Shown here: positions 4,415 through 39,952 of the stretch, one piece after another
Numbering within the stretch: the first letter of the stretch is position 1
Layout: each line of letters begins with the position of its first letter
Source of the DNA: a virus
Virus record (IMG/VR): IMGVR_UViG_3300033388_003167
Span: 1 to 41,906 of that record
DNA: 41,906 bases
Strand: one strand, 5' to 3'
Notes under the pieces: model-generated
Database searches by the model: none
Told to the model about the DNA's origin: nothing
The model's input: only the letters and a program-made list of their open reading frames with translations
Translations under genes and position numbers: made by a program

Positions 4415-4768
4415 TTACACCGCCACACAATCGGCCTGAGTGTGAGCCGCGATATTTACTTCATCGTAATAACGCACTCCAGTAATCCTGTAGTTGCGGC
4501 CCGAATGCTCGAAAGTATCGTAGGAATCATGGCTGACGACTATGTCCGCTTCACCATCAGCAAGCAGTCCGAGGGATACCTCTTTGACCTCCCCTTCCGG
4601 CAAAGTCACCTCGCGCTGGTTGTGAGTCGATATGTTGTATAAGCGCACGGTGATAGGGTCAAGCTCTGTTTCGGCCCACGAAAAGCCGCCGGCGTTCGGC
4701 ACTTTGGCGTGGCGGGTTATCGTTATTATTGCCGAGTCAAACCCTACGAGGGTATCAATAACGCTCAT
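4415..4768 (-). CDS. Putative head closure protein
   Basis: This 117-residue protein is mostly predicted beta strand (DSAIITITRHAKVPN, ITVRLYNIST, ADIVVSHDSYD, NYRITGVRYYDEVN). This fits the small beta-barrel head-closure or stopper proteins that plug the portal channel. It overlaps the connector gene before it by four bases (ATGA). Gene order (adaptor, this gene, gp10-like, terminator) supports the call; sequence identity to a named family is not certain. Confidence 0.55.
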   Translation of the reverse strand: MSVIDTLVGFDSAIITITRHAKVPNAGGFSWAETELDPITVRLYNISTHNQREVTLPEGEVKEVSLGLLADGEADIVVSHDSYDTFEHSGRNYRITGVRYYDEVNIAAHTQADCVAV

Positions 4769-5148
4769 GCAGTCCTAAACCTCGGATCGGGGCCGTCGTG
4801 TGTGGCCCGTGTGTCTGTTTCGTCACGCCTTGGGGCCGACACGGATTCGCCGCCAAGTAGCTCGTGGGCGCGGCTCATGCAATAAGCCTTGTCAACCTGT
4901 ACGCTTATGTCGCCCACGCGGTAACTCGTGAGCTTGTTGGATTCCTGCCCCCCGAGCCAAAGCCACGCACGGCCTGCGGCGCGGTCAACGTTGTAGGTAG
5001 CCGTGTAGCCGTCCTCATTCGGCCTGTACCCGTCTTCATCCGCCACCTTCTCCATGTCTAAAAACTCTTGTATCTGCTCATCGGTGAAGGCGTAAATATC
5101 CGGGTAATGAACCAAAAATTTAAACCTGTCAAATGCGCTCATTGACAT
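4765..5148 (-). CDS. Head-tail connector (adaptor-like) protein
   Basis: This 127-residue protein opens with a helical segment (FTDEQIQEFLDMEKVA), and has the pattern DRAAGRAWLWLGGQESNKLTSYRVGDISV. Gp6-like head-tail adaptor proteins of siphoviruses have the same pattern: helices, then a TSYRVGDISV-type segment. It starts in a TAATG overlap with the last gene of the glycan cassette. It therefore resumes the virion-assembly genes right after the four-gene insertion. Confidence 0.7.
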   Translation of the reverse strand: MSMSAFDRFKFLVHYPDIYAFTDEQIQEFLDMEKVADEDGYRPNEDGYTATYNVDRAAGRAWLWLGGQESNKLTSYRVGDISVQVDKAYCMSRAHELLGGESVSAPRRDETDTRATHDGPDPRFRTA

Positions 5149-5762
5149 TACAAGTACTCCCTGAATTTTCTCTCGCGCTTTCGCAGTATGTCGTAGTACA
5201 CTTTCTTGTCTCTCACGCGGGCGGGCGGTCTTTCAAGCTCGTGGTGCTGGATATGCGAGCCTTTGAGTATCGCCCACCTGTAGTTTTTCCCCACCTTGCC
5301 CACAAGCGCGAAGGTGTTACCGTGGGCGTCGTGGAGCCAATAATGCTTCTTTTCGTAGTGCAAACCGGGTATGTGCTTGAACAGCCGAACGCGGTCTATC
5401 TCGTGGTACGGCTTCTCGCGCTTGAGCTTCATGACATAAGCGTCAAGCTCCGGCGCGGGCGAGGGCCGTGGGCCTATCCATTCTTCGTCAGCGTCGAGCA
5501 TGACGTACCAGTCGCCCGCGCTTCCCACCAGATAAGAGTTGCGCTTGTGGACTTCGTCCAGCCCGGAAACACAAACAACATGGACATCGGGGATGCTCTG
5601 CAGGTATTCAAGTGTCCCGTCAGTCGAGTATTCGGAGTCGCCGGGGAAGTCCGCAAACCTGCCGTCAACCGCTATAATCTCATCGACCTTGTATCGCAAG
5701 GATTCGATACACCGCTTTATAAGCGGCATATCGTTGTAGGTGATTACCGTTCCCCGTATCAT
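5148..5762 (-). CDS. Family 2-type glycosyltransferase (GT-A)
   Basis: The protein begins with a GT2-type N-terminus (RGTVITYNDMPLIKRCIESL). It has a DXD-type metal and sugar-nucleotide motif DADEEW around residues 90-95, preceded by GDWYVML. At 204 residues it is a minimal GT-A catalytic domain without membrane segments, so likely cytoplasmic. I choose the ATG at 5762 because it overlaps the previous TGA as ATGA; a start eight codons upstream is possible. Substrate is unknown. It is the last gene of a four-gene cassette. Confidence 0.85.
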   Translation of the reverse strand: MIRGTVITYNDMPLIKRCIESLRYKVDEIIAVDGRFADFPGDSEYSTDGTLEYLQSIPDVHVVCVSGLDEVHKRNSYLVGSAGDWYVMLDADEEWIGPRPSPAPELDAYVMKLKREKPYHEIDRVRLFKHIPGLHYEKKHYWLHDAHGNTFALVGKVGKNYRWAILKGSHIQHHELERPPARVRDKKVYYDILRKRERKFREYL

Positions 5763-6805
5763 CCTGATCTCAACGCCTTGATCCATGTTCCGTAATAATC
5801 AATTTCTTTCGATTCCCAGCTTTGGGCCTCTGCCTGCGCCCGCGCACGGCGGGAATATTTCGCGGTGTCGATTGTGAGCAACCACTCCATGCGCTCTTGC
5901 AACTGGTCTACCGTGACCTCGTTATAAACGGTGTTGGTAACCCATTTTTTGTTTAACAGCCACTGCTTTGCGGGAGGTATCAGGAAGTTGGGGTCATGCT
6001 GATACAGGTGCATCGGGTCTGCGTCCACCGTCAGCACTGGCATACCGCAAGCCATGCCCTCCAATATCGAGCGCTCGTACCCCCCGTAAGCTATAGGCGC
6101 AAGCAGTATGTCGCCTTCGGCGTAAACGTCAGCAGGCTCCGGTTTTGTACCCAATTGATAGACGATGCGCGGATCATCCACTTTCACTCCTGCGGGCCAA
6201 CGCTCCTGCGAATGCAGGATGAGCCGGGCGGCAGGATCGTGGATGCGCTTAAACGCCTCTACCACCTTCGCTGATTGCCTGCGATCCGCAAGGCACCCGT
6301 AGCCGATGTTGACAACAAACGTATGCCCCGTGCGCTCGCGAAACGGAAAGAGCTTCAAACCTATCGGCAAAAACAAAAAACTTTTACGTGCGGCGCGGGT
6401 TTTCTTCCACGCAGAGGAGCAAGTGCAAATCAACAAATCACTTTCCAACCGCTCTGCTGATAATGTTTCGTGCATCGGGATACCAACTGTCTTTGCCCCG
6501 TGCTTCCGAGCTAGCGGGTAAAGCTGATCGGAAAACGGCGTCTCAATAAATAGCACCACCTCGGGGGCAAAGCGGGCTAGGTAATCATCAATAACAGTAG
6601 GATGGGGCGGGCGTTTGCTTGTTACCTGCCTATCCGTCCAAACCTTCTGACCTTTTATCCCGCTTGAAATCGAGAGTATGCTATCGGCTTTGAGATACTG
6701 CCAGAACTCCCAGACAAAGACTCCTATCCCTGAAGTTTTGTTGGTGTATCCGACAACCCCGATTCTCGGAGGATTCTCCAAAAGTCCTCCATTCTCGCAT
6801 CCCAT
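5759..6805 (-). CDS. GT-B glycosyltransferase, group 1-like
   Basis: This protein of up to 348 residues has two Rossmann-type halves. The N-terminal half opens PPRIGVVGYTNKTSGIGVF. The C-terminal half has YAEGDILLAPIAYGGYERSILEGMACGMPVLTVDA (residues about 225-262), the nucleotide-sugar binding region of GT4-like enzymes with the conserved E-x7-E-like pattern and GMPV. It overlaps the upstream glycosyltransferase by 82 bases if the ATG at 6805 is used. A TTG near 6781 after GGAGG would shorten it by about eight residues. It transfers a sugar from an unknown donor. Confidence 0.85.
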   Translation of the reverse strand: MGCENGGLLENPPRIGVVGYTNKTSGIGVFVWEFWQYLKADSILSISSGIKGQKVWTDRQVTSKRPPHPTVIDDYLARFAPEVVLFIETPFSDQLYPLARKHGAKTVGIPMHETLSAERLESDLLICTCSSAWKKTRAARKSFLFLPIGLKLFPFRERTGHTFVVNIGYGCLADRRQSAKVVEAFKRIHDPAARLILHSQERWPAGVKVDDPRIVYQLGTKPEPADVYAEGDILLAPIAYGGYERSILEGMACGMPVLTVDADPMHLYQHDPNFLIPPAKQWLLNKKWVTNTVYNEVTVDQLQERMEWLLTIDTAKYSRRARAQAEAQSWESKEIDYYGTWIKALRSG

Positions 6806-7617
6806 GTATGATGCGCGTGGGCATAAGCGCAGCCAGCTTTTGCTATTCGCTCACGCTCCGCTGAGTGTTTGAGGTAATAGTCAATCTTCTCGAAAAGGTT
6901 ATTCGGCTCATAGGTCACAAGGTGCTTACCCGGCGTGAACACCCGCTCCAGCCCCGGTGTGGCGGGGTGGAGGACAAACCCACCGCAAGCAAGGTGCATA
7001 TAAACCCTATTAGACCAATAGCCGGGGATGTCATCTCTCGCGCTGGCGCAGACCATGATTTTCGAATTCGCGCAGACGCGAGCATGATCAAGCCCCCGGC
7101 AGTTGTTATCCTTGCCATACTGCTCAAAATCAAAGCGGCGTTTCAGGTCGTGCATCAGCCAGCGCCGCGAGGGGTCGCGATCGTGGCCGATAAATGCAAC
7201 GTCCCTGATCCTGCGGCCCTCAACAGGGTAATGCTCGCTCGGGTCAAACGCTTGCGGAAACCAAACTCGCTTTATACCCGCCTGTTTATAAGCCGATGAA
7301 TCAAAACCGTCAGTTGAAAGCGTGAGGTCAAAATCGCGCAAAGCGGGAAAGTAAAGCCTGTCACGGTTGTACCAGCCAACGATGAGATCAAAATAGTGAG
7401 CAACCTTTATACCCTTTTGCGACCGCCAGAACTCCGACGAAAAGGCGTGGGGTATTGTTGTCAGCACCAAGTCATATGCGCGTTTGGTAAACTTCCCTTG
7501 GTTGAGATGCTTTACGTGATAGCGGTCAACCTCCACATCGGGGTAGCGTTCCAGCGCGGCGGCCACTCCCCATTCGGTGTGCCACTTGCCAAAGTGCCCT
7601 ATGTAGCCGACGCGCAT
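6724..7617 (-). CDS. CgeB-like glycosyltransferase
   Basis: This 297-residue GT-B protein starts MRVGYIGHFGKWHTEWGVAAALE. It carries DLTLSTDGFDSSAYKQAGIKRVWFPQAFDP and RDVAFIGHDRDPSRRW, the hallmark middle of the CgeB / glycosyl transferase group 1_2 type. The C-terminal half has PGYWSNRVYMHLACGGFVLHP, where the protein recognises its sugar nucleotide. It overlaps the FkbM gene by 19 bases and the next transferase by 82 bases, so the cassette is tightly coupled. It is cytoplasmic, with no membrane segment. Confidence 0.82.
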   Translation of the reverse strand: MRVGYIGHFGKWHTEWGVAAALERYPDVEVDRYHVKHLNQGKFTKRAYDLVLTTIPHAFSSEFWRSQKGIKVAHYFDLIVGWYNRDRLYFPALRDFDLTLSTDGFDSSAYKQAGIKRVWFPQAFDPSEHYPVEGRRIRDVAFIGHDRDPSRRWLMHDLKRRFDFEQYGKDNNCRGLDHARVCANSKIMVCASARDDIPGYWSNRVYMHLACGGFVLHPATPGLERVFTPGKHLVTYEPNNLFEKIDYYLKHSAERERIAKAGCAYAHAHHTWDARMEDFWRILRESGLSDTPTKLQG

Positions 7618-8336
7618 TTTTGCAAAAATACCTTCGGAAAGCCGCTATTGCGGCAAACTGTTTCGGTAAACGATTTGCTTCCAACGACATCCGGCCCAAG
7701 GATTGTTTGCGGGACAAACCCAAACTCAAGAATTTTATCTATGGCGCGGGCAAGCCGTGTCTTGTCCGGGCCACACTTTAATGGATGCAAATCTATAAAC
7801 ATCCAGCTTCCAACCGGCATAGCCGCGAGAGTCTTTTCACCTCCGGAAACCATATGAATCTCCGCACCTTCGATGTCACAGCGAATGAGGTCAACTTGTT
7901 CAATGTCATTTTCAGCCGCAAAAGTATCTAGCGTGATTGCATCTACTTCGATGTTCCCGTTAGGCGACAACCGCCCCCGGTCAGAGCGACCGGGGGATTG
8001 GTAAAATAACGCCCTCCCGTTCTCGGCGGCTACAGCATAATTAAAAATATCAATGTTCCGGAGGCCGTTAATATCCTTGGCCATGGTCATGATTTCTACG
8101 TTGTGGGGGTCAGCCTCTATCGCGTAAACCCTAGCTGCCTTTTTAGCCTCAAGCAACATGTAAAAGCCAAGGCAAGCCCCCATTTCAACAACAGTCCAGT
8201 CCGGCTGAATAATGCTATCAAGGATATCTGGCGCTTCGCGTTCCCATCCTTCACCTTCCAAAAGCTGTGCGGACATACCGACGTCTTCGGTATCGAGAAT
8301 CATCTTGAAATTTCTGACGTCCTTCTCGATTAACAA
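7599..8336 (-). CDS. FkbM-family methyltransferase
   Basis: This 245-residue SAM-dependent methyltransferase shows motif I as VVEMGACLGFY (residues 49-59), then ARVYAIEADPHNVEIM. The FkbM signature is VDAITLDTFAAEN followed by VDLIRCDIEGAEIHM. FkbM enzymes O-methylate hydroxyls on polyketides and sugars. Here the neighbours are three glycosyltransferases, so a methylated glycan is likely. The open frame begins with TTG at 8336 immediately after the previous TAA; the ATG at 8303 is an alternative start. Confidence 0.85.
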   Translation of the reverse strand: MLIEKDVRNFKMILDTEDVGMSAQLLEGEGWEREAPDILDSIIQPDWTVVEMGACLGFYMLLEAKKAARVYAIEADPHNVEIMTMAKDINGLRNIDIFNYAVAAENGRALFYQSPGRSDRGRLSPNGNIEVDAITLDTFAAENDIEQVDLIRCDIEGAEIHMVSGGEKTLAAMPVGSWMFIDLHPLKCGPDKTRLARAIDKILEFGFVPQTILGPDVVGSKSFTETVCRNSGFPKVFLQKCASAT

Positions 8337-8624
8337 TTAATCGCATTCCCTTTTGTGAGCGGCAAGGTCGCTTGCTGTTTTTGCTACAAATCCGCAAGCG
8401 CAAATATAACGAGGGGGTTCCATATAACCCCGCTTTGTTGCGGAAGGCTTTGCCGATTGTGACCCAAACTTCGAAGAATTAACCGCTGTTGTCCTTTTCC
8501 CAATTGGGTAAGCCTCGACAAACCCTCTTCGTATCCACTGATCAGCTTGCTTGTCCGCTATGTCGAGGACTTGGCCGGGCCGCCATACGCAGCCCGGCCT
8601 AGCCTTAAGTACCCGCACCTTCAT
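8337..8624 (-). CDS. Small capsid-adjacent protein with C-terminal zinc finger
   Basis: This 95-residue protein starts with MKVRVLKARPGCVWRPGQVL, a segment common in short proteins next to phage capsid genes. It ends with CACGFVAKTASDLAAHKREC, a C2HC-like finger. The ATG overlaps the capsid stop as TAATG, so it is translated with the capsid. It may be a decoration or head-completion protein, or bind DNA or protein through the finger. It is the last gene before the glycan cassette; its role is not known. Confidence 0.65.
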   Translation of the reverse strand: MKVRVLKARPGCVWRPGQVLDIADKQADQWIRRGFVEAYPIGKRTTAVNSSKFGSQSAKPSATKRGYMEPPRYICACGFVAKTASDLAAHKRECD

Positions 8625-9544
8625 TAGTGGGGCACTCCGGTAACCTTGCTCAGAACATCGTCGAGCTTCACCTCGAACGCTTTTCGCATTCTGAAGCGGA
8701 GCGCTATCATGTCTTGCTCTGCCAGGTTAACATCCTCGTCTGACGGGTTTTCGGCGGTCAACGTCGCCTGATCAAGCAACTTGACCTGTATTCCTATCCG
8801 GTCGCCCACGTACAAGTAGGGCGTATAGGCAAGTAGGATTTCAGATGCCGTCGGCGAACCGCTCGCGACAACCTGCCGCGTGAACCTGATCGGGACTCCA
8901 TAAACAGAATAGTCGCGGAAGTTGTCTCTCAGATTTTCCACGAATATTGGGTTGTTGTTAGCATCCCGAAGCCCGCGAAGCAGTGCCTTGACGCGAGGGT
9001 GACCCACCATTCCCGTGCATTCGTAACCGTTTACCTCTATCGCGGATATTGCCTCATTGAGGTCATCCGCGAGGTCAGCGGCAGGGCTTGTGCCGTAAGC
9101 GATGGTGTTAGCCGCCGGCACGTTGCCCGACCACGAGGAAGCGAACGGTGTTCCTACATCATATCCCAGCGTAAACGCGTCATACTTCTCAGCCAGAGCC
9201 TGTACAACGTCCTCTTTCACGAAGCTGATGGTGTCGATGTCTGCATCTTCAACCTCTTCCTCCGTGAAAGGCACGATGACGGCTATAGTCTCGGCAATCA
9301 GAACGACCTTGGTGAAAGTCTGGGCGTCCTTGGGCTTCACGCCCTTTTCGTCCACGGCTTCCGGCGATACGCTGGTCAACTGCCGCCTTATGACCTTCCG
9401 GCTGGATTTCATCGGCCAGTGACGGGCGAAGTAATCAACCACGCTCTCGTCGTGCACCAGCTTGTTGATCTCGGCTGCGACCTCATCCGTGATGAGTACG
9501 CCGCCGGTGGCGTCAGTGAGTGTATCTATTGCAGGGATAGCCAA
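8624..9544 (-). CDS. Major capsid protein, HK97 fold
   Basis: This 306-residue protein has the typical HK97-type body: an N-arm region, FTKVVLIAETIAVIVPFTEEEVEDADIDTI (E-loop and P-domain border), LADDLNEAISAIEVNGY, and a C-terminal AEQDMIALRFRMRKAFEVKLDDV where capsid proteins finish the A-domain. It starts with TTG at 9544, with GGGAGG eight bases upstream and no better codon. The scaffold precedes it. It lacks a long N-terminal delta domain, consistent with a separate scaffold. Confidence 0.9.
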   Translation of the reverse strand: MAIPAIDTLTDATGGVLITDEVAAEINKLVHDESVVDYFARHWPMKSSRKVIRRQLTSVSPEAVDEKGVKPKDAQTFTKVVLIAETIAVIVPFTEEEVEDADIDTISFVKEDVVQALAEKYDAFTLGYDVGTPFASSWSGNVPAANTIAYGTSPAADLADDLNEAISAIEVNGYECTGMVGHPRVKALLRGLRDANNNPIFVENLRDNFRDYSVYGVPIRFTRQVVASGSPTASEILLAYTPYLYVGDRIGIQVKLLDQATLTAENPSDEDVNLAEQDMIALRFRMRKAFEVKLDDVLSKVTGVPH

Positions 9545-9565: not shown

Positions 9566-10132
9566 TCATTTGGCAGAGCGCCCCTTGCCCTGAATGGCGG
9601 CAAGCATCGCCTTCTCGAAAGCGTGTTCCTTGCCGCTGGATATGGGGGGGCCGCCTGCGCCCGGTGCTGGAGGTGGAGGTTGCCCGGACTTCATGATCTC
9701 GGGGTATTCCCTAACCAATTTGTCCAGCGCTTTTTGCACGTCTTTCGCGTTCGCCGCGCCGTCCTCGACCTCGATATCAGAGAGGTCTAACAACTTGTAG
9801 GCCGCCTCCGGGTACTTGATACCCATCTGAGAGGCGGTACCCACAACCGCCGCCTTGACCGACATCTCGGTAAGCATCCGGTCGCGTTCTTCGACTTCAC
9901 GCTCCAGCCGCGCCTTTTCCTCATTCACACGCTCCAGCTCTGTCTTGTCAGCGTCCTTGAACTTTTTGACCTGGACCGTTAAATCCTCAACCTGCTTCGC
10001 GAATTTCTGCTTTTCGACGCGGTGCTTGGCCGCCTCGTCGCGAAGCTCTTTAACGTACTCCTCGTCAAAAGTTTTAGGTTCGCTATCTTCGCCTTTGCCT
10101 TCCGGCTCCTGTCCTTCTGGCTCCTCGGCCAT
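9566..10132 (-). CDS. Scaffold protein, GP20-like
   Basis: This 188-residue protein is highly charged with a long coiled coil (residues about 25-90), then a small folded stretch TASQMGIKYPEAAYKLLDL. A Pro/Gly-rich hinge (PPPPAPGAGGPP) and a basic tail follow. This layout matches the phage minor structural GP20 scaffold family, which directs procapsid assembly and is later removed. It lies directly upstream of the capsid gene. A terminator-like hairpin ends 31 bases before its start codon. Confidence 0.85.
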   Translation of the reverse strand: MAEEPEGQEPEGKGEDSEPKTFDEEYVKELRDEAAKHRVEKQKFAKQVEDLTVQVKKFKDADKTELERVNEEKARLEREVEERDRMLTEMSVKAAVVGTASQMGIKYPEAAYKLLDLSDIEVEDGAANAKDVQKALDKLVREYPEIMKSGQPPPPAPGAGGPPISSGKEHAFEKAMLAAIQGKGRSAK

Positions 10133-10163: not shown

Positions 10164-10188
10164 AAAAAAGCCCCCGGATTCGGGGGCT
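10164..10188 (-). terminator. Terminator-like hairpin before scaffold gene
   Basis: On the minus strand AGCCCCCG and CGGGGGCT form a perfect eight-base stem with a four-base loop, followed by six T. It lies between the 58-residue gene and the scaffold start, leaving 31 bases, too few for a promoter. It must be leaky, bypassed by antitermination, or act on RNA stability. Confidence 0.8.
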
Positions 10189-10209
10189 ATACAAACCGCT
10201 TATCGCGGG

Positions 10210-10386
10210 TTATTCCTGTTCGTACTCTACCGTCTCCTCCAGCTTCGCAAGGTACATCAAAACGCAACACCCTTCACGGTCGACGCCGTTCTCATCTATG
10301 CCGATCCACGCGTCCCACCAGGCGCACTCTTCGCCCACGCACTGGCGCGGGTCAAGATGCCCGAGGGACAAGAGCGGGCAAATCAC
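10210..10386 (-). CDS. Small cysteine-rich phage protein with CAWW motif
   Basis: This 58-residue protein begins with GTG overlapping the previous TGA as GTGA, with GAGGA seven bases upstream. It reads ICPLLSLGHLDPRQCVGEEC, then AWWDAWIGID and DREGCCVLM. The spacing of CPLL, C-x4-C and CC, with two Trp after the third Cys, looks like a small metal-binding protein found near head genes of Gram-positive phages. The final CVLMYLAKLEETVEYEQE is probably a helix. Function is unknown; it is coupled to the gene before it. Confidence 0.65.
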   Translation of the reverse strand: MICPLLSLGHLDPRQCVGEECAWWDAWIGIDENGVDREGCCVLMYLAKLEETVEYEQE

Positions 10387-10688
10387 AGAAACATCCTCGT
10401 AAACTCAGGGTTGTCACGCAGAACCGCGCAAACCATGTTCGACACGGCAGTCAGCACCTGGTGACTGAACTTGTCTTTGTCATACTCCAACTGCCATTTA
10501 ATGGACTCGAACACCTCGTGCATAATGTCGTTTTCCGGGCGGTTTTTTAGCCTCGAATCAAACCAAATAACGCCTTCAACCGGGTCGTGTTGCGCGTCAG
10601 CGTCAAAGCGCTCGGCCATCCTCTCGGCCTGCTTTACCTTGTATTCGTAAGCAAGCACTTTAATCTTCTTGATCACGCCGCCAACCAC
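10383..10688 (-). CDS. Small HE-motif phage protein (degenerate metallopeptidase-like)
   Basis: This 101-residue protein has VEGVIWFDSRLKNRPENDIM, then HEVFESIKWQLEY and a C-terminal MVCAVLRDNPEF. Related small phage proteins carry HEILHA in this place, a zinc-peptidase-like HExxH helix, and end with LRDNP. Here the motif is HEVFE, so the second His ligand is Glu; catalysis is doubtful. It overlaps the MuF-like gene by 16 bases and the following small Cys-rich gene by four. The link to peptidases is by pattern memory, not proven. Confidence 0.55.
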   Translation of the reverse strand: MVGGVIKKIKVLAYEYKVKQAERMAERFDADAQHDPVEGVIWFDSRLKNRPENDIMHEVFESIKWQLEYDKDKFSHQVLTAVSNMVCAVLRDNPEFTRMFL

Positions 10689-11527
10689 CCTGCTATTCCT
10701 AGCTCATCCCTGCCCGTGGTCATGTAATCATCCAGCGCACGGCTCCACTGTGTGTCGGACATCGCTTCCTGCTCCAAAATGCAAGCGCATTGCGGGTGCG
10801 GGTCCATCGGGATCACGTCGCTGGGCCCGTACCTGTTGCCCTCCAGCACGTCACATTCCGCGCATTCGTCCTGGCCCGTCCTCCTCCAGATAAGCGCCGT
10901 AACCCACGGCGACCTGCCAAGCGCCTCTTTCGCCGTTTCCCGGTAAGCCCTCATGACTTCCGTGCGGGCGAGGCGCATAGAGTCAAAGTTAAGCGAGCGC
11001 CCGTAGGGTGTGGGCGTAGTAACCTGGCGGCCTGGAAGCACAAACCCGTCAAGCTGGCGTGATATCGTCTCCGCGTTGAAATTGCTTGCAATCCCGTTGC
11101 GGATTATCGCCGTGATATCGCGCTCGTAACGCAAATCCCATATCCTGCCTGATAGGGTCATCCCGCTCGGCAGGTTGCGGCCTAAAGCCTGCTCCGCCAA
11201 GACTTGCGCGTCAGGGACGTGGGCCAAGAGATGAGCCGCAAGCCCAGCCGTTATAGCCGCTTCCACGAACGGCACACCCTGGAGCTTCACGCCTTCAGCC
11301 TCGAAACTCGCGGCCCGCTCTATGTTCGCCAACAGGGTTTGCTCGTAAGCCCCGGTGTAAGTCTCCAGAACCCCCTCGACCTGCCGCTCGAACTTCGCGT
11401 CAACTTCGTCGGGGATATATATCGCTTTCCGCAAACTGCGCAAGAGGCTTGCGATGTCATTTTCGTTCTTCCGCAAGAGCTTGACGCGCTGGCGATTGTA
11501 CGACCTTCGCCACGCGGAATAATTCAT
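10673..11527 (-). CDS. Minor head protein, MuF-like
   Basis: This 284-residue protein follows the portal region, as MuF proteins (SPP1 gp7-like) do. Its C-terminal domain shows the signature: SMRLARTEVMRAYRETAKEA, then VTALIWRRTGQDECAECDVL, NRYG and MDPHPQCACILE. The ATG at 11527 has GGGAGGGG upstream; a longer frame to 11611 lacks a ribosome site. MuF proteins enter the procapsid with the portal and may leave with DNA. No toxin domain is attached at the C-terminus. Confidence 0.82.
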   Translation of the reverse strand: MNYSAWRRSYNRQRVKLLRKNENDIASLLRSLRKAIYIPDEVDAKFERQVEGVLETYTGAYEQTLLANIERAASFEAEGVKLQGVPFVEAAITAGLAAHLLAHVPDAQVLAEQALGRNLPSGMTLSGRIWDLRYERDITAIIRNGIASNFNAETISRQLDGFVLPGRQVTTPTPYGRSLNFDSMRLARTEVMRAYRETAKEALGRSPWVTALIWRRTGQDECAECDVLEGNRYGPSDVIPMDPHPQCACILEQEAMSDTQWSRALDDYMTTGRDELGIAGWLAA

Positions 11528-20788: not shown

Positions 20789-20964
20789 ATTGACCTCCTT
20801 ATAGACGACTGCCCTCTCCCCAATGCAAGAATGCGAACGCTCTTGAACGGACCAACAGAAAACCGTCCGTGACATCTCAGGCACTCGTAAAGATTGCCCC
20901 ATACCAATTCACGGCCTGACGTACTGCCGCAGTAGGGACATTCAATTCCACGTGCTTTTTTCAT
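20785..20964 (-). CDS. Small zinc-ribbon protein
   Basis: The start is ATG 20964 with AAGGA upstream; the longer frame to 21000 lies in the preceding gene. The 59 residues read KKARGIECPYCGSTSGREL, then YECLRCHGRFSVG: a classic four-Cys zinc ribbon (CPYCG...CLRCH). A basic tail follows. It overlaps both neighbours by four bases. Likely a nucleic-acid or protein binder of unknown target. Confidence 0.68.
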   Translation of the reverse strand: MKKARGIECPYCGSTSGRELVWGNLYECLRCHGRFSVGPFKSVRILALGRGQSSIRRSI

Positions 20965-21623
20965 ATTGCCGTCCTTATCCCCTCGACAGTCTGTATCCAC
21001 TCCGGCGGGTTCCCCACACAGTAGCCCTTCAAGTCATGAGCCGTCTGGTAAGGCGACCACACCGGATACTGAGTGATAAACGTCGCCGCGCCCTGTATCG
21101 CCGTCTCCCAGTCCGGCCACCAGCACCAACCGCCAGAGCCTTGTATCCCCACAGCCGCAACGCGCCCGTTGTGCTTCATGCCCCACGCGTTGTGATTTGT
21201 CCGGCAGAGGTAGCCGTCAGTGGCAAGCGAACTCTCAGCCGCCGTAAGCCCTACGAGGAGCCGCGCTGAAACGCCTGTTCGCTCCTGCGCCTCGACGAAG
21301 ACGTGACCAAGGCCCGCCAGGGGTGAGCCGCGAGAGGAGAGAAGCGCGTCAATGCGATTGATAAGGTCTTGACGTTGCTCAAGTGCTATCGACTGCTCGA
21401 TGATGTACTGCCACTTCGCCGCGTCGAGCATTTCTGGGGGTACCAGGGGAGCCGCGCTCTCTAACCGGACACCGTGACCCGTACGTTTATTCGCTTTCGG
21501 CTCCCCCGATGATGTTAGAATATGGGAAGCGCCTGCCGTTACAAACGTGGCTATCGCTATCAGTGGAATGAGGGTGACTAGCACGGGGTGGGCGCTTAAT
21601 TTTCTTCGTTTTCGTTTTCGCAT
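20961..21623 (-). CDS. Membrane-anchored muramidase-like protein
   Basis: This 220-residue protein has a basic start and one membrane helix (residues 13-31). A linker and a lysozyme-like domain (about 100-215) follow: ARLLVGLTAAESSLATDGYL with candidate catalytic Glu 130, then NHNAWGMKHNG and WETAIQGAATFITQYP. This is the pattern of transglycosylase/glucosaminidase folds. It sits among early genes, not with tail or lysis genes. It may remodel the wall during early infection or be a weakly expressed late enzyme. Confidence 0.7.
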   Translation of the reverse strand: MRKRKRRKLSAHPVLVTLIPLIAIATFVTAGASHILTSSGEPKANKRTGHGVRLESAAPLVPPEMLDAAKWQYIIEQSIALEQRQDLINRIDALLSSRGSPLAGLGHVFVEAQERTGVSARLLVGLTAAESSLATDGYLCRTNHNAWGMKHNGRVAAVGIQGSGGWCWWPDWETAIQGAATFITQYPVWSPYQTAHDLKGYCVGNPPEWIQTVEGIRTAI

Positions 21624-25270: not shown

Positions 25271-26107
25271 TTAAACAAGCTCACTTATATCTTTCTCCCC
25301 GATAACCTTGCACTTTCTCACGCGGAATTTTCCATCGGTGGCTGTGGGTACGCAGGCTATGTCGTCAGCGGTGAACTCACATATCAGGACTTTGTATCCG
25401 GGTTGATATACTTTGAGGCACCAATCGAGAGTGGATAGGTTAATGCCCGCCGCGCATTGTTGGTTTGGGTCAGTGTTTGCATTCTCAATTTCTAACGTCT
25501 TACCTACTTCGTATTTGAGGCCGCCCATATATATTCCCTCGTTTTTCTTGTTGACGATTTTATATGCGCGGATAAATCCGGGTTGATCCATCAGCATGAG
25601 TAACGGAGTACATCTTTCAGGTGTTATTCCTCTCGCGCCGGTCATGTTTGCACCGGCCAAGTACGCACAAGTCAAGTCTGCGTGGGTCAGGTTAGCACGG
25701 GTCAGGTTCGCACCGGACAAGTACGCACCGGTCAAGTCTGCGTGGGTCAAGTCTGCATGGGTCAGGTTAGCACAGGTTAAGTCTACATGGGTCAGATTAG
25801 CACGGGCAAAGTCTGCACCGGCCAAGTCTGCACAGGTCAAGTCTGCGTGGGTCAAGTCTGCATGGGTCAGGTTAGCACAGGTCAAGTCTGCGTGGGTCAA
25901 GTCTGCATGGGTCAGGTTAGCACAGGTTAAGTCTACATGGGTCAGATTAGCACGGGTCAGGTTAGCACAGGTCAAGTCTGCATGGGTCAGATTAGCACGG
26001 GTCAGATTAGCACGGGTCAAGTCTGCATGTTTTCCACCTTCACCGCGCAACCACATTCCATGCTCTTCAATGATTTTTTTAAGCTCTACCTTAGTGTAAG
26101 TTTTCAC
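25271..26107 (-). CDS. Pentapeptide-repeat protein
   Basis: This 278-residue protein has a helical N-terminus and about 25 pentapeptides of ALT-type (ANLTH, ADLTC, VDLTC...) from residue 28 to 158. A folded C-terminal domain of about 115 residues follows (FIRAYKIVNKKNEGIYMGGL, VLICEFTADDIACVPT). Pentapeptide repeats form a right-handed beta-helix; some mimic DNA and bind gyrase (Qnr, MfpA). The C-terminal domain resembles those linked to repeat proteins of the DUF5758 kind. Target unknown. Confidence 0.85.
   Translation of the reverse strand: MKTYTKVELKKIIEEHGMWLRGEGGKHADLTRANLTRANLTHADLTCANLTRANLTHVDLTCANLTHADLTHADLTCANLTHADLTHADLTCADLAGADFARANLTHVDLTCANLTHADLTHADLTGAYLSGANLTRANLTHADLTCAYLAGANMTGARGITPERCTPLLMLMDQPGFIRAYKIVNKKNEGIYMGGLKYEVGKTLEIENANTDPNQQCAAGINLSTLDWCLKVYQPGYKVLICEFTADDIACVPTATDGKFRVRKCKVIGEKDISELV
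25630..26030. repeat. 15-base tandem repeats encoding pentapeptides
   Basis: The DNA repeats units such as GTCAAGTCTGCGTGG and GTCAGGTTAGCACGG in arrays, with longer blocks (for example 25841-25875 and 25881-25920) repeated almost exactly. This suggests recent expansion by unequal recombination or slippage, while the reading frame is preserved. Confidence 0.85.
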
Positions 26108-28741: not shown

Positions 28742-29077
28742 ATGTATCGTAATACCATTTCCGCGTTTGTAGTGTTTGTCATGCTTGTGCTGCTTTTGTC
28801 CGGGTGTGGTACAGCGGTCGAGCCGGGCGTTTATGTGAAGCAGTCAGACCAACAGGAATACCTTGACTTGAGTGAGTCGGGCAAGTATACCCACCACCAT
28901 GACATTGCTGGATATGATTTCGGTTTCAGCAGAACCTATTTCGATTTTAGCGGAACCTACACGGTGATGGGAAAACACGTTGTACTTGAAGACGAAAACT
29001 CAGATCATAAAGAGAAATGGAAGATCGACGGAGACAACCTGCGAAATCCGGACGGCGAACTTTACCTCCAGATGTAG
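28742..29077 (+). CDS. Prophage-encoded lipoprotein
   Basis: This 111-residue protein has a hydrophobic signal (SAFVVFVMLVLLLSGC) with the lipobox LSGC, Cys 22. A mature beta-rich domain follows (EPGVYVKQSDQQEYLDLSES, YDFGFSRTYFDFSGTYTVMG). SD GAGGAGGGAG precedes it. It lies in an operon with the repressor, so it should be made in lysogens. Lipoproteins placed this way often exclude superinfecting phages (as in TP-J34 Ltp) or alter host surface; function here is inference. Confidence 0.75.
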   Translation: MYRNTISAFVVFVMLVLLLSGCGTAVEPGVYVKQSDQQEYLDLSESGKYTHHHDIAGYDFGFSRTYFDFSGTYTVMGKHVVLEDENSDHKEKWKIDGDNLRNPDGELYLQM

Positions 29078-29144: not shown

Positions 29145-30533
29145 ATGAACTCGAAGGCCGTTGGATATGTCCGGGTCAGCACTCAAGAGCAGGCCCGTTC
29201 CGGCATCAGCATCCCCGACCAAGAGCAGAGAATCCGCGATTATTGCACCGCCCGCAAACTTGAACTCGTTGAAATCTACCGCGATTCCGGGGTGAGCGCA
29301 GGCGTGAAGTTGTCCAACCGCCCGACAGGTCATAACCTCCTCGCTTGTCTCCAAAACGGCGTTTGCAATGTCGTGGCGGTGAAGCTCGACCGCCTGTTCC
29401 GAAATACCGTCGAGTGCCTTGAAACGGTTGTCGAATGGGATAACCAGGACAAGGCATTACATCTTATCGACTTTGGCGGTGCGGCACTTGACACTAAATC
29501 GGCGATGAATAAAACATTTCTGACGATGACCGCCGCCTTCGCGGAGCTGGAGCGCGAGCTTACCCGGGAACGCATTCTCTCAGCGCATCGCTATATTGCG
29601 CTGGAAGGCAAATGGAAGGGCGGGCGACTGCCGCTCGGATACCGATACCACGACCGCGAGTCAAAAGACTACACGCCTGAAATCGACCCGGACACCGCGC
29701 CGCTCGTGCGATTCATGTTCGAGTCCAAAGCCAATGGCTGGAGTAATGCCGCGATACTCAGGGGGCTTGCAGAAAAAGGGTACAAAACATACGTTGCTCA
29801 GATAAATAATATACTTGCCAACAGGTACTATATAAGTGAGCGCGAGGTCGACGGCAAGGTTTATCCGGTTGACATCCCCCCTCTGATAGATCGTGAATTG
29901 TGGCACAGGGTTCAGGCTGCAAAGACTTTCAACGGTTATACACCCGGTCGCAGGCGATACATTTTGAGCGGCATATTGCGTTGCGGGCGTTGCGGCGAAT
30001 TGATGATACGCTGGAACCGCGCCTCGAAGGGCTATGCCGAGTACGCCTGTAAGGGCCGCAAGCATTGGGGAACCTGCAAGGGCGTGGGGATTCGCGAACG
30101 AATAGCCGAGAAAGCGGTACTTGAGCCATTCTTTGCTCACGTCGATGAGCAAAACTACTCAAGGGCGATAGCTCAAGCGAACGCCCGCGAGCGGGAAGAC
30201 ACCTCCAGAGTCAGCTGCATACGCTCGGAAATAGCCGCCTTAAAAGATAAGCAGGCCCGGCTGCTGCACCTCCACCTGGAGGGCAAGTTATCGGAAGGTC
30301 AGTGGGATCAGGAAAGCAAACCGCTCAATCAGCAACTACAGATACGGCAGGCGGAGCTTAACCGCGCCGAGGCCGAGCTCGCCCTGCCCGCTGTATGGGA
30401 GGGCGACATACGGGATGACTGGAAAACGCTTAACCTAGACGAACGCCGCCACGCGCTCAGGCTCTTTATCAACCACGCTGTTGTACACCCCGGTAGAGGC
30501 CCGGAGAGGGTAGAGATTAGCTGGCGCGAGTAG
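29145..30533 (+). CDS. Large serine recombinase (integrase)
   Basis: This 462-residue integrase has the resolvase domain with nucleophile Ser12 in GYVRVSTQEQ. LDRLFRNTVECLE and the E-helix follow, then the recombinase domain (RLPLGYRY, NGWSNAAILRGLAEKGYK, about 160-265). A zinc ribbon has C280, C283, C302 and C311, and a coiled coil spans about 340-400. SD AGGAGG precedes the ATG. It catalyses attP x attB integration without host factors; excision would need a directionality factor, not identified here. Confidence 0.95.
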   Translation: MNSKAVGYVRVSTQEQARSGISIPDQEQRIRDYCTARKLELVEIYRDSGVSAGVKLSNRPTGHNLLACLQNGVCNVVAVKLDRLFRNTVECLETVVEWDNQDKALHLIDFGGAALDTKSAMNKTFLTMTAAFAELERELTRERILSAHRYIALEGKWKGGRLPLGYRYHDRESKDYTPEIDPDTAPLVRFMFESKANGWSNAAILRGLAEKGYKTYVAQINNILANRYYISEREVDGKVYPVDIPPLIDRELWHRVQAAKTFNGYTPGRRRYILSGILRCGRCGELMIRWNRASKGYAEYACKGRKHWGTCKGVGIRERIAEKAVLEPFFAHVDEQNYSRAIAQANAREREDTSRVSCIRSEIAALKDKQARLLHLHLEGKLSEGQWDQESKPLNQQLQIRQAELNRAEAELALPAVWEGDIRDDWKTLNLDERRHALRLFINHAVVHPGRGPERVEISWRE

Positions 30534-35040: not shown

Positions 35041-36134
35041 TAATAATTGCTCCTGTTTTCGATTTGCGCGAGCAGCACCGCCACCGTGTCGGGAGGCTCG
35101 CCCGGCGAGAATGTCACCTTACCGTCCTTGTACGACACTTCCGCAATCTCCCACGTGGTGGTTTCATTTGTCACGCCGTCCCCCGCTATCGTCTCTTCGG
35201 TGGAAAGCAGGCGTTCGACGTAGATTACTCCGTCAGCCTTCGCTTCTTCGGGGTCAATGCGCCCGCCGTATCTGTCATGTACTTTGTCGGTGGTGAGGCT
35301 GGAAGAGGGACGCAAGTCCTTGTGCTGCGCGATAAAGGTATCGGCTATCTCCTGCGCTTCCGTTTCCCCGCACTTGCCGGATACCGACCCCCAGTAACAC
35401 CGCTTGCCGTGGCGCTCCTGCGAGTCGGTGTCCTCTGAGGTGACATAGCCGTAAACACTGCCGTCACCCGTGTACGCCCACTGACACCAATTATAGATTT
35501 CCGTGCGGTTGCGGTTTAGCTCCGATTGCTCACAGTCTTCGAGGTGGACGTAGTATTTAGGAGTTTCGTCGCGGGGCTTGAAGTCGAGTGCCCATCCCCA
35601 ACAGGCAGGCCTCCAGCCGTTATACTCGTTGCCCGCGTTTATGGCGTCTTCATAGCTTTTGCCGGGAAAAAATTCAATGCCTGTCGTAATCTCAAAGTCC
35701 TTATCGCTAATGTCCCCCTGCTCTATCGGCAGGTCATCGTCTGAGGTAATGTGGTCAACGATATAGGTTGATAGCTTTTCCCCGGCCTCCAGGTTGAGGT
35801 CGTAATCCGCGTCAGTCCCCTGTATCTTTAGCTTCGCCGAAGGCCCAACACACTCCACGCGGTGCGGTTCGTCGGTTCCTATCTGGCGGTTGACCCCTTC
35901 AATGTCGCCCTCCCAAACCGTGCTGCCCTTATGCAGGACAACAACGCGGTTGGAGTCTTCGAGGTCAACCCAGTACATCGAGGGGTCGCGTCTGACAGTG
36001 AAGGTGCACGTCGCGTATCCCCAACGGTTCGACCCGTACTCAAGGTCGGAGTAAGCGTAAGTTTCGTCAGGCGAATCCGGGGTTAGCGTCGATAATCTTT
36101 CGGTTCCAGCCCTATCCCACAGTTCTATAATCAT
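35040..36134 (-). CDS. Tail/baseplate protein, likely tail-associated (Gp37-like)
   Basis: This 364-residue protein has NRWGYATCTFTVRRDPSMYW and VVLHKGSTVWEGDIEGVNRQ, then PHRVECVGPSAKLKIQG. This pattern is of baseplate hub / Gp37-type siphovirus proteins that bind the distal tail. The middle has WGWALDFKP and a C-terminal strand region (VSYKDGKVTFSPGEPP). It is coupled by ATGA to the large propeller protein and works with it at the tail tip. Confidence 0.68.
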   Translation of the reverse strand: MIIELWDRAGTERLSTLTPDSPDETYAYSDLEYGSNRWGYATCTFTVRRDPSMYWVDLEDSNRVVVLHKGSTVWEGDIEGVNRQIGTDEPHRVECVGPSAKLKIQGTDADYDLNLEAGEKLSTYIVDHITSDDDLPIEQGDISDKDFEITTGIEFFPGKSYEDAINAGNEYNGWRPACWGWALDFKPRDETPKYYVHLEDCEQSELNRNRTEIYNWCQWAYTGDGSVYGYVTSEDTDSQERHGKRCYWGSVSGKCGETEAQEIADTFIAQHKDLRPSSSLTTDKVHDRYGGRIDPEEAKADGVIYVERLLSTEETIAGDGVTNETTTWEIAEVSYKDGKVTFSPGEPPDTVAVLLAQIENRSNY

Positions 36135-39100
36135 GTTACCGAGGTCGCGGTCAGGAGGTAGGTCGGATTATATATTAGACATATGTCGCAAATAGGAGAC
36201 AGTTCATCGTCGAGTTCGTTTTCTTTTACAGCCAAGAGCGTCAGGTTCATGCCGTCCGGGTCAGCCTCGAAAGCGGGCGGGCCTTTCCAGTTCTGGTGGT
36301 CGTAAGCCGCAGCCGTGTTCAGCGTACCGTCAAGGGATACCAGCACCGCACGACCGGAGCGCGAGTCGAGAATCATCGAGTCGGCATCTGTCCAGTTGGT
36401 TATTTCGGTTATTGCCCTGTCGTAGTAGAGCAGGGCGATATGGTCGTACCAAATATCTTTATCGTTCAGCGGGTCGGTGGCGACGCGCACAACCTGGTTA
36501 AGATATGAGAGGTCAGCGTTAGTGGATACAGCGTGGGAGGGTATCGAAATTTTGACGCGGGCTAGTTTGAAAACCTCCTGAAAGTCTGTGTTGGCGTCAC
36601 CGATATCAGCGGTTTTGAGTTCAATGTGCGGGGTTATCTCGGCATCGGCGGCTGTACGAATAAACGTATGTGAGGTCAGTTCCCCGTATTCGGAGGTAGC
36701 GCCAAAGGAAAAACCGCCGGAGACGAAAGCGCGGCCCTCGTGTGCGTCAATCGGAAAAGCCGCCTCGATATATTTCGAGTCGAGCTCGGCGAAGAGCATA
36801 TCATCAAAATGATGATACCCGTACAGGCTGGGAGTCGTCCCCTTGCAGGTGAGCCTTATCGCGGCCTGAGTCGTGCCAACCGGGAAGTCATCGGGATAGA
36901 CATAGCCGATAATCTTTGTCCAAAGGTTGGGGGGGTATCCAGCCCAGAGCGCCTTTTGCCCGAGCTTATTGTCTCCAACGTCGTAAAACTCGATTATCAG
37001 CGACGAAGTCAACTTCCACGCATGGGGGCCAGAGCGCTCAGTCCAAAGTTGTGCGACGTAAGTTTCTCCGGGGTCAACCGCTATTTTGTCGCTCAATAAT
37101 TTTTCGTTGCACGTACCCCCGGAAGAGCGCCCCATGCGAACGCTTGCCAAACCCGCGTGGTGATAATCCGTGGTGGCTGTAAGCACAGCGCCCGATATGC
37201 CGGAGCGCGTGGCCGTCCAGTTGCCCCACGCCACGGGATCACCGGCGTAAGTCTCAAAGTCAGGGTTAAGCAGGAGGTTGGCAAGCGCACTTACGGTGTG
37301 ATAATCCTGCGAGCGCCGCGTCCAGAGAATTACCTTTGTATCGCCGCCCGGCTCTTGCACGGGGTCGAAATCGGCGCTGTATAAGTCACGTTGCGCCAGC
37401 ACAAGGTCGGTAAAGCGGTCATATACAACGTCGAAATACCAGTCAGCCCGCGTGGGCAGTATCCCGAAGATATCCGTCGGGGGAATGATAAAGCCCATCG
37501 CGCCCGAAACCTTGTAGCCCGCAATGTACTCAGTGCATCCGAACCACAGCCGGTCAACGCAAAGGGTGGAAGCTACGGTGGAGTTATTGCGGATGGTGCG
37601 CTTGATCTGCGTTGTGCCCGCCGGGAACGCCGGCGCGTCACCGCCCACGGGGTTTATCACGCCGTCCCCGCCCACCTCGCAGATGTCATACCACTTTGCA
37701 GCGTCAGGATCATAATCCTCGACGATGTTCAGTGTATCAAGTAGCACCGCCGCGTCATCATAGCAGGCAATATCTACCTCCACGTTGGCGTTTCCCGAAT
37801 ATTCGTAGGCGAAGACCATGCATTGGTAATGGAGTCTGGAATTGACATCGATATAGCCAGCATCGGTTATCGCTGCAACGTCAGTCCCGCCGTCAGTCGT
37901 TTCAAGCTCAATAGAGGCGTCACCATCGAGTGCTACATAACTGCCGATAGCAACAGTTCCAGCATTAGTTTCTGTAAAATCCCAGCCTGTCGCTCCCCCC
38001 GCACATACTGTCAATATGCCGGTGTAGAGCCTTCCGCCGTATATTCCAGCTATAATGTTGGAGCCGTCATCATCCAGGTTGCAACAGTTCCAAAGTTTGT
38101 TCACCGGGCCAGCAGGTCGAAGTTCCATCCATGTAGCACCGTTATCTTCGGATAAGTATAACCTGCCACCATATACTCCCGCTATAAGATTAGAGCCGTC
38201 GGAGTCGGAGGAGCAACATGACCAATCTTTGTTGACATTCCCCGCCGGTTGCCGCTCATCCCACGTCGCGCCTGAATCGTCGGAGGTGTAGAGCCTTCCC
38301 CCATATATTCCAGCTATCAGATTACTGCCGTCCGAATCAGAAGAACAACACCGCCAGTTTAAGTCATTGTCCCCGCCAGGTTGCCGCTCATCCCACGTTG
38401 CCCCTGAATCGTCAGAGGTGTAGAGCCTCCCATTTTCAACACCGACAATGAGGTTGGAGCCGTCACTATCCGAGGCGCAGCACACCCAATTTTTATCATT
38501 ATCTCCAGCGGGTTGCCGCTCATCCCACGTTGCCCCTGAATCGTCGGAAGTCCAGACTCGACCGCCATAGTCAACGGCGATAAGATTAGAGCCGTCAGCG
38601 TCGCTAGCACAACACCGCCAGTTAGCATCGATGTCTCCTGCCGGTTGTCTCTCAGTCCATGTTTCACCGCTATCATCCGAGGTGTAAAGCCTGCCGCAGT
38701 ACACTCCTGCGATAAGGTTAGAGCCGTCGGAGTCGGAGGCGCAGCACCGCCAGTTAAGTATCGGAGGGGGACTGCTGGTGACGGTGACGGTTATGTCATC
38801 CCAGTAGACAGACCCATTAGACCAACTATCGCAAGCACCGCGCACCCTCACCCCAATCTCAACGGTTCCACTAGGATAATCGCCAGGTTCAATACTGATA
38901 GTCTTTTGTGTCCATGAGAGGGGGGCGGTAAATGAACTTGAGGTCTTGAATCCCAGGAGAGAGCCGCCAGAGTTGTAGAAAAAGACGCTCCAGTTTACGC
39001 CAATTTGGTTTGTGGAGTATGACATACACCAAACTTTAACATCATAAGATGCAAGTGGATTAATACTCGCCCTGTTATTACTTTTGGTAGTTACGTAATA

Positions 39101-39952
39101 TTGAGGTGAATGGCTACGTATTTTACAAGAATATGTTCCACTCTTCACGGAGGCGCTGGAGCGTTTAACATTTAATGGGTCAGTACTAGACCTATCAAAA
39201 TAGGTGAAAGCATCCCCAGCACCCGCCTCGAATCCGGGATCAGCGAAAGACGGTACTGTGGGTTCTTCAACCTCGCGCTCTGCCCAAGTCGCGCCTGAGT
39301 CATCTGAGGTGTATAGGCCGCCGCCATAAACACACGCTATGAGGTTGGAGCCGTCGGAGTCGGAGGAGCAACATACCCAGTTAGCGTCGGTGTTTCCCGC
39401 CGGTTGTCTTTCAGTCCAGTTAACCGTACTTTGCGTTCCCATCTCAAAACTATCGTTAACGCCTAAAGCCTCCAGCACGGTAAGCGTCTCGGTGTCCAGC
39501 TTCACCTCGTGGTCAACGGGAATTTCTGTAACCACATTAAGGATGAAAGAACCCGTGACACTCCCTGACGGCTGGATAATGTGTTTATCGCGCACCATGT
39601 CGGGGAGTTTGGGGAGCGCGGGGTAAGTGTGATAATAAACTGATTCGTCAGCACCCCACAGGCGCACCTCTAAAGTCTGCTCTTTGAGAAGTTCGGCAAG
39701 CAGGAGATTTAGGTTGTTGTAAGCGTCCTGTTCATTTGTACCGCGCACGGCAAGGTTAAGCGTTATCGCGTTCCCGCCGATGCGCCAGTTAGCAAGCCTG
39801 CGCCCGTCTGCAAGCACATTCTCCACCCAGTTGTAGAGGACTTCCGGCAGGGGGAATAAAGTATTGTCGGCAAGGTAGAAGGTAACCTCATCATTAAGGT
39901 CGAGTATTGTCTCCCCACCTATGCCGCCGACGAATCGACATCTAATGCTCAT
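36131..39952 (-). CDS. Large tail-tip protein with Dit-like domain, seven-repeat Asp-box propeller and lectin-like domains
   Basis: This 1,273-residue protein follows the tape measure (ATGA overlap), where distal tail proteins lie. Residues 1-165 look like a Dit-like domain. Residues about 178-645 hold seven units NWxCCxSDSDGSNLIAGVYG, then GRLYTSDDSGATW-x-ERQPAG, with Asp boxes (SxDxGxTW), typical of BNR/sialidase-like beta-propellers. A jelly-roll-like domain (227-396) is inserted after unit 1. Two more jelly-roll-like domains occur near 660-800 and 880-1040. It probably binds host surface glycans; hydrolysis is uncertain. Confidence 0.78.
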   Translation of the reverse strand: MSIRCRFVGGIGGETILDLNDEVTFYLADNTLFPLPEVLYNWVENVLADGRRLANWRIGGNAITLNLAVRGTNEQDAYNNLNLLLAELLKEQTLEVRLWGADESVYYHTYPALPKLPDMVRDKHIIQPSGSVTGSFILNVVTEIPVDHEVKLDTETLTVLEALGVNDSFEMGTQSTVNWTERQPAGNTDANWVCCSSDSDGSNLIACVYGGGLYTSDDSGATWAEREVEEPTVPSFADPGFEAGAGDAFTYFDRSSTDPLNVKRSSASVKSGTYSCKIRSHSPQYYVTTKSNNRASINPLASYDVKVWCMSYSTNQIGVNWSVFFYNSGGSLLGFKTSSSFTAPLSWTQKTISIEPGDYPSGTVEIGVRVRGACDSWSNGSVYWDDITVTVTSSPPPILNWRCCASDSDGSNLIAGVYCGRLYTSDDSGETWTERQPAGDIDANWRCCASDADGSNLIAVDYGGRVWTSDDSGATWDERQPAGDNDKNWVCCASDSDGSNLIVGVENGRLYTSDDSGATWDERQPGGDNDLNWRCCSSDSDGSNLIAGIYGGRLYTSDDSGATWDERQPAGNVNKDWSCCSSDSDGSNLIAGVYGGRLYLSEDNGATWMELRPAGPVNKLWNCCNLDDDGSNIIAGIYGGRLYTGILTVCAGGATGWDFTETNAGTVAIGSYVALDGDASIELETTDGGTDVAAITDAGYIDVNSRLHYQCMVFAYEYSGNANVEVDIACYDDAAVLLDTLNIVEDYDPDAAKWYDICEVGGDGVINPVGGDAPAFPAGTTQIKRTIRNNSTVASTLCVDRLWFGCTEYIAGYKVSGAMGFIIPPTDIFGILPTRADWYFDVVYDRFTDLVLAQRDLYSADFDPVQEPGGDTKVILWTRRSQDYHTVSALANLLLNPDFETYAGDPVAWGNWTATRSGISGAVLTATTDYHHAGLASVRMGRSSGGTCNEKLLSDKIAVDPGETYVAQLWTERSGPHAWKLTSSLIIEFYDVGDNKLGQKALWAGYPPNLWTKIIGYVYPDDFPVGTTQAAIRLTCKGTTPSLYGYHHFDDMLFAELDSKYIEAAFPIDAHEGRAFVSGGFSFGATSEYGELTSHTFIRTAADAEITPHIELKTADIGDANTDFQEVFKLARVKISIPSHAVSTNADLSYLNQVVRVATDPLNDKDIWYDHIALLYYDRAITEITNWTDADSMILDSRSGRAVLVSLDGTLNTAAAYDHQNWKGPPAFEADPDGMNLTLLAVKENELDDELSPICDICLIYNPTYLLTATSVT

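Follow-up and report, generated by a model that had tools for sequence, protein, structure and literature searches.

Sugar-modifying genes within the head operon of a temperate phage and their probable role in virion glycosylation

Composition and position of the cassette

The IMG/VR virus record IMGVR_UViG_3300033388_003167, analyzed over its full length of 41,906 nucleotides (nt) and referred to below as the window, carries a cassette of four sugar-modifying genes within its head operon. The window is a complete phage genome with a 114-bp direct terminal repeat, and the phage is temperate, encoding a serine integrase (29145-30533). The late genes are located on the minus strand in the order small and large terminase, portal, head morphogenesis, scaffold, major capsid protein (MCP), gp95, FkbM-family methyltransferase, CgeB-like glycosyltransferase (GT), GT-B, GT-A, connectors, and tail (Table 1). 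An earlier note, made from the sequence alone, had placed the four genes between a capsid gene pair and the head-tail connectors; this placement was upheld and each enzyme is backed by Pfam, while the supposed pair was found to consist of the MCP and gp95. Downstream of the cassette are neck genes, one with a PHROG "head protein" match, and a gene with a tail-tube match. The first of these downstream genes, a connector gene judging by its position, is kept in four relatives and is 45-52% identical to the first post-cassette neck gene of the metagenomic relatives G002 and G003.

The cassette genes are coupled through overlaps which, as annotated from FkbM through to the connector, measure 19, 82, 28, and 1 nt. 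In relatives the GT-A starts at the position of Met9 in the window (the probable start, 5762), which yields a 4-nt ATGA junction with GT-B. Assembly genes resume at a TAATG junction between GT-A and the connector, as had been noted, and a junction of the same kind joins MCP and gp95. The four genes had also been described as late and overlap-coupled; the coupling was borne out, whereas lateness is suggested by their position, and promoter and terminator scans of the cassette region gave no clear excess over shuffled sequences. Given that position, expression of the cassette late and together with the head genes is very probable. A strong terminator-like hairpin (10169-10188, minus strand; 8 pairs, 7 of them G-C, followed by TTTTT) lies directly upstream of the scaffold gene, and the scaffold-MCP-cassette block may form its own transcription unit.

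No cultivated relative or host was identified. No match to the CgeB-like, GT-B, or GT-A proteins was found among 50,697 phage records, no match was returned by PDB sequence searches with the CgeB-like protein and with GT-B, and no prophage was detected in two scans of 84,980 genomes. The FkbM protein matched proteins of Rhodococcus and Streptomyces phages at 22-26% identity, and in Peregrin and Navo, the two phages inspected, the FkbM gene lies outside the head operon. The nearest cultivated portal belongs to Bacillus subtilis phages (33%).

Table 1. Cassette and adjacent head genes of the window, with supporting matches.
Feature	Coordinates	Strand	Evidence
FkbM-family S-adenosylmethionine (SAM) methyltransferase, 245 amino acids (aa), TTG start; proposed glycan-capping	7599..8336	-	PF05050 4.5e-13; TIGR01444 fkbM 2.3e-21
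CgeB-like GT-B-type glycosyltransferase, 297 aa; proposed chain extension	6724..7617	-	PF13524 (Glyco_trans_1_2) 8.1e-27
GT4-like glycosyltransferase (GT-B), 348 aa; proposed chain extension	5759..6805	-	PF13692 (Glyco_trans_1_4) 3.7e-9
GT2-like GT-A, 212 aa; proposed first transfer onto protein	5148..5786	-	Glycos_transf_2 1.2e-4, just short of Pfam cut-off
Scaffolding protein, opens this head block	9566..10132	-	Phage_scaffold PF06810 2.6e-11
MCP, HK97-type; candidate acceptor	8624..9544	-	Phage_capsid PF05065 3.3e-25; phrog_10 4.5e-35
gp95, small MCP-adjacent protein; candidate anchor or acceptor	8337..8624	-	N-domain, serine/threonine (S/T)-containing linker, CxC-H-C zinc-finger-like tail
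Probable head-tail connector gene, the first to follow the cassette; joined to GT-A by TAATG	4765..5148	-	weak phrog_4055

Sugar-related genes in the same slot of other phages

The slot between the capsid genes and the connectors had been said to hold usually nothing. This is true of five annotated phages that have a related capsid or portal protein (Listeria phage vB_LmoS_293, Microbacterium phage Juanyo, Bifidobacterium phage Bbif-1, Oceanotoga phage UFV02, and Bacillus phage 268TH002), which have small proteins after the MCP, many of their genes being annotated only as hypothetical, and no annotated sugar gene between the MCP and tail genes. By comparison, three metagenomic relatives (G002/L006, G003/L035, and L058) share the head and tail block of the window, two of them with 61-63% identity in terL, 56-58% in portal, and 50-59% in MCP, and all three carry a sugar cassette in the slot. 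The slot of L006/G002 comprises a fusion of gp95 with a methyltransferase, CgeB, GT-B, GT-A, a LamG protein, and a beta-helix protein; that of L035/G003 comprises gp95, a methyltransferase, an SGNH hydrolase, CgeB, GT-B, and GT-A (the methyltransferases of both were called from a SAM-binding motif, LNLGCG, and not from a Pfam match). L058 encodes gp95 fused to two GT2 domains, a 157-aa methyltransferase-like protein, a GT2, a UDP-sugar dehydrogenase, and GT-A. In all four related phages GT-A is the last sugar gene before the connector (46-55% identity), while the first part of the cassette is exchangeable and consists of FkbM, of a different methyltransferase (alone or together with an SGNH hydrolase), or of GT2s with a sugar dehydrogenase. 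Three other phages have a relative of CgeB (43-54%) in the same slot, and three have one of GT-B (50-62%). The LamG-domain protein and the pectate-lyase-like, spike-like beta-helix protein of L006 (12065-14874) lie between GT-A and the connector and are possible capsid-surface fibres.

Sugar genes were also found at this address beside an unrelated head. Phage G001/L004 (contig 3300033145_003419) has an MCP assigned to phrog_1623 rather than phrog_10, and its MCP, portal, and connectors gave no BLAST match to those of the window. The same slot nevertheless holds a CgeB (54% identical to that of the window), a GT-B (50-61%), and an FkbM (39%), as well as a zinc finger like that of gp95 (53% over 38 aa). 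The cassette has therefore been transferred between phages while keeping its address. The GT-B of L004 is split by a frameshift (10200-11259), which reflects either an assembly error or decay.

A third lineage (L016, L068, L067, L072, L073, L076, and others), whose MCP is only 29% identical to that of the window, likewise carries a sugar-gene island between the MCP plus a small protein and the first connector. Its enzymes differ and include an epimerase, WbqC, a DegT aminotransferase, a GT2, a DXD-motif GT (PF04488), methyltransferases, and a GSCFA protein. In all contigs with a complete slot the island ends in a conserved GT of about 745 aa that overlaps the connector gene. The lineage was gathered mainly with this 745-aa GT, and part of its uniformity therefore stems from the way it was collected. 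A scan based on the MCP yielded four contigs, each of which carries sugar genes in its slot. On the basis of about 14 late-block junctions, the chance of the same junction being used in two further lineages is roughly 0.5%, a figure to be taken as a rough estimate and not as a test.

Candidate acceptors and a proposed glycosylation pathway

Comparison of GT-A with solved structures points to enzymes that act on polypeptides. A GT-A profile searched against the PDB gave matches below 0.1 only to GmaR, a Listeria flagellin O-GlcNAc (N-acetylglucosamine) transferase (1.3e-4), and to the peptide S-glycosyltransferase ThuS (7e-4), with SunS, of the same activity, next. The sole NCBIfam match was to TIGR04195 SunS (1.3e-6), at 27.5 bits against a family cut-off of 350, which places GT-A outside of the SunS family proper. 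An AlphaFold model of GT-A, built from an alignment of only four sequences, had a predicted local distance difference test (pLDDT) of 72 and a predicted template modelling score (pTM) of 0.73. A structure search for protein-glycosylating relatives had been suggested as a check, and in Foldseek the model matched SunS (4.9e-9) and ThuS (1e-7) best, the next class following at 3.3e-6; fold Z scores were 15.4 for ThuS, 14.4 for SunS, and 14.2 for WrtF. The catalytic domain of GmaR is thus the closest solved sequence and SunS and ThuS the closest folds, although the latter are about twice the length of GT-A and GmaR contains additional TPR, linker, and antirepressor domains. Because GmaR, SunS, and ThuS all act on polypeptides, the modelled GT-A likely makes the first protein-sugar bond.

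The small protein gp95 is predicted to consist of an N-domain, a disordered linker with several S/T residues, and a beta-beta-alpha zinc-finger-like tail (low pTM). Homologues were not found in phage records; the finger is kept in relatives. The gp95 N-domain is joined to a methyltransferase in L006 and to a double GT2 in L058, and these fusions tie the small head protein to the sugar pathway. In L004 a gp95-like protein follows in frame behind a GT2. Resemblance to the small protein of the third lineage is only suggestive (hhalign probability 52%). Small C2HC zinc-finger-like proteins are also encoded near the MCP in L010, L013, L028, and L029, a phage group free of slot sugar genes, and so the finger alone is no marker. 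An S/T-rich acceptor tail was sought on the MCP and the tail tube, whose C-terminal end reads ...PVTSSLVVDAID, and none was convincing. We know of no general sequence rule for the acceptor site at a capsid or tail-tube C-terminus. In another phage, a 685-aa, extremely Thr-rich protein (L038, 348-2405) is encoded directly before a large sugar-gene cluster and suggests itself as a candidate virion protein with heavy O-glycosylation.

The closest precedent in gene arrangement is found in cluster O mycobacteriophages, which encode an O-methyltransferase and three transferases between portal and protease (PMC4351075). Capsid modification was proposed for these phages in 2015 from the gene set and poor recovery of capsid peptides, and the four enzymes were detected in infected cells, not in virions (PMC4351075). 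Two later papers credit Freeman et al. 2023 with modified capsid and tail-tube proteins (PMC11600133, PMC12619734), and the reported mycobacteriophage glycans are located at C-termini (PMC12619734). Cluster O phages (Corndogvirus, e.g. Firecracker gp33-gp36) and the window share one sugar methyltransferase and three GTs in tandem inside a virion operon. They differ in the junction occupied, which in the window is that of MCP/gp95 and connector, and in enzyme families, the cluster O set including a TylF-type methyltransferase and GT25-like enzymes. The slot GT2 of L004, which accompanies CgeB, GT-B, and FkbM enzymes related to those of the window, is related to Firecracker gp35 (28% over 195 aa), and across the phage collection finds cluster O glycosyltransferases at 5e-5. 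A bacterial parallel is the type B flagellin system of Clostridioides difficile, in which the first GT adds GlcNAc to the protein, a second adds rhamnose, and methylation has been proposed for a methyltransferase domain (PMC5207246). There, as in the window with its candidate acceptor, the GT genes (GT1-GT3) immediately follow the gene whose product is modified, whereas the target is flagellin and not a capsid, the GTs are all PF00535, and the locus is chromosomal.

Taken together, the occurrence of similar cassettes in the same slot beside unrelated heads, the resemblance of GT-A to polypeptide-glycosylating enzymes, and the cluster O precedent of a methyltransferase and three GTs in the head operon with reported capsid and tail-tube glycosylation support decoration of a virion protein with a short, probably methylated glycan. 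This was the proposal of the earlier note; it is the best-supported reading and a probable one, with candidates only for the acceptor. That the cassette assembles a glycan is nearly certain, and a virion protein is its likely target. For the MCP or gp95 as target rather than the tail, and for FkbM methylating the glycan as a cap, the chances are in each case about even. Several observations count against virion decoration. The C-terminus of the window MCP, the kind of site at which glycans are reported in mycobacteriophages, is not S/T-rich. BLAST gave no significant match between the four window proteins and Firecracker gp33-gp36, homology to the cluster O enzymes not being required for function. 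WrtF, an annotated fucosyltransferase with oligosaccharide acceptors in its structures, nearly ties with SunS in fold Z score. In GmaR a GT domain of about 180 aa acts on protein and the TPR region is proposed to recognise flagellin (PMC9638930); GT-A has no such region, so its acceptor recognition must differ.

Under this proposal, the four genes would constitute a small cytoplasmic protein-glycosylation pathway made alongside the late head proteins. GT-A would attach the initial sugar to a virion protein (the MCP or gp95 being the most likely), GT-B and the CgeB-like enzyme would lengthen the chain, and FkbM would O-methylate it, leaving a particle that bears a short capped glycan. Shielding of the particle or tuning of adsorption would be the presumed benefit. 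A more specific idea, tentative and on balance unlikely, is that gp95 is a dedicated partner of the pathway, either with a capsid-bound N-domain that brings the enzymes or with its Cys-rich, S/T-linked tail as a glycosylated display element; the linkage on such a tail may be O- or even S-, given the SunS-like fold modelled for GT-A. If so, the L006 and L058 fusions and the GT2/gp95-like arrangement of L004 would represent naturally tethered forms of a modular system that coats capsids with sugar and holds one operon position in at least three phage lineages.

Such a mechanism is known in kind, and what seems to be new is the lineage, the position, the families of enzymes, and the swapping of modules. 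In the literature that could be found, covalent virion glycosylation has so far been shown mainly for actinobacterial phages. A single operon slot is kept across lineages with unrelated head proteins by a cassette that is modular and in which capping and extending enzymes are swapped. Whether virion glycosylation is a mycobacteriophage speciality thereby becomes a question that mass spectrometry on other phages can answer. Furthermore, the cassettes offer pathways that are short and soluble and by which methylated glycans may be attached to a self-assembling particle, which is of use for studies of particle glycans in adsorption and stability and for glycoengineering.

Alternative explanations and other features of the genome

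Prophage-encoded GTs that modify the host surface exist, e.g. TarP. A late change of a host surface glycan such as wall teichoic acid, serving to mask receptors, prevent superinfection, or keep progeny off debris, would suit a temperate phage, and the fold matches of GT-A include TarP, TarS, and RmlT. These matches rank under SunS and ThuS, however, and the genes lie inside the head block, not beside the integrase, at a position kept across unrelated heads. The four proteins are devoid of transmembrane helices, and no multi-helix membrane protein (flippase) was seen in the phage except the tape measure. Host-surface modification is accordingly regarded as unlikely. A GtrABC-type serotype-conversion cassette, which would include a membrane flippase and a membrane-anchored polyprenol GT beside the integration region, was considered and rejected, given the lack of membrane helices and an integrase some 18-21 kb away on the circular map. 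The earlier note had likewise thought serotype conversion less likely, and this judgement stands; its argument that the genes would not be lysogenic is weaker than stated, as the phage is temperate. Still less probable is that the genes are passengers (morons) in a recombination-prone slot, functionally unlinked to the virion. Gene content does vary strongly between relatives, and the L004 GT-B is frameshifted, but the cargo is repeatedly sugar-related and not random, the LamG and beta-helix proteins of L006 being the exceptions. Translational coupling, the gp95-enzyme fusions, and a conserved last GT in two lineages also argue against unlinked passengers.

Glycosylation of phage DNA bases, as in hypermodified-DNA phages, is very improbable. 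Phage GTs able to modify DNA are known (PMC12619734) and GTs are present in the window, but no base-modification gene was recognised among the proteins scanned, which covered part of the open reading frames; location and relatives link the set to head genes, and an FkbM-type O-methyltransferase fits sugars. More remote again is a glycocin-like pathway in which GT-A would S- or O-glycosylate a secreted peptide (bacteriocin) and not the virion. In its favour, GT-A is nearest in fold to SunS and ThuS, the former of which derives from the SPbeta prophage; against this stand the TIGR04195 score, far under its cut-off, and the head-operon location, and no leader peptide, C39 transporter, or oxidoreductase gene was noticed nearby, where no systematic search was made.

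Outside of the head operon, the tail region encodes a 1273-aa protein (36131-39952, minus strand) that gave BNR/sortilin-like and carbohydrate-binding (CBM_4_9) matches and may bind the receptor. In the early region, a pentapeptide-repeat protein (25271-26107, minus strand; PF00805 1e-50) is encoded by an array of 15-bp repeats. Adjoining the serine integrase is a gene for a 111-aa predicted lipoprotein (28742-29077, plus strand; lipobox LLSGC) with no Pfam match, which is possibly a lysogen-expressed superinfection exclusion protein. Finally, a 220-aa protein with an N-terminal hydrophobic segment and a weak glucosaminidase match (20961-21623, minus strand) has a counterpart with 46% identity in phage L004/G001, which is otherwise unrelated.

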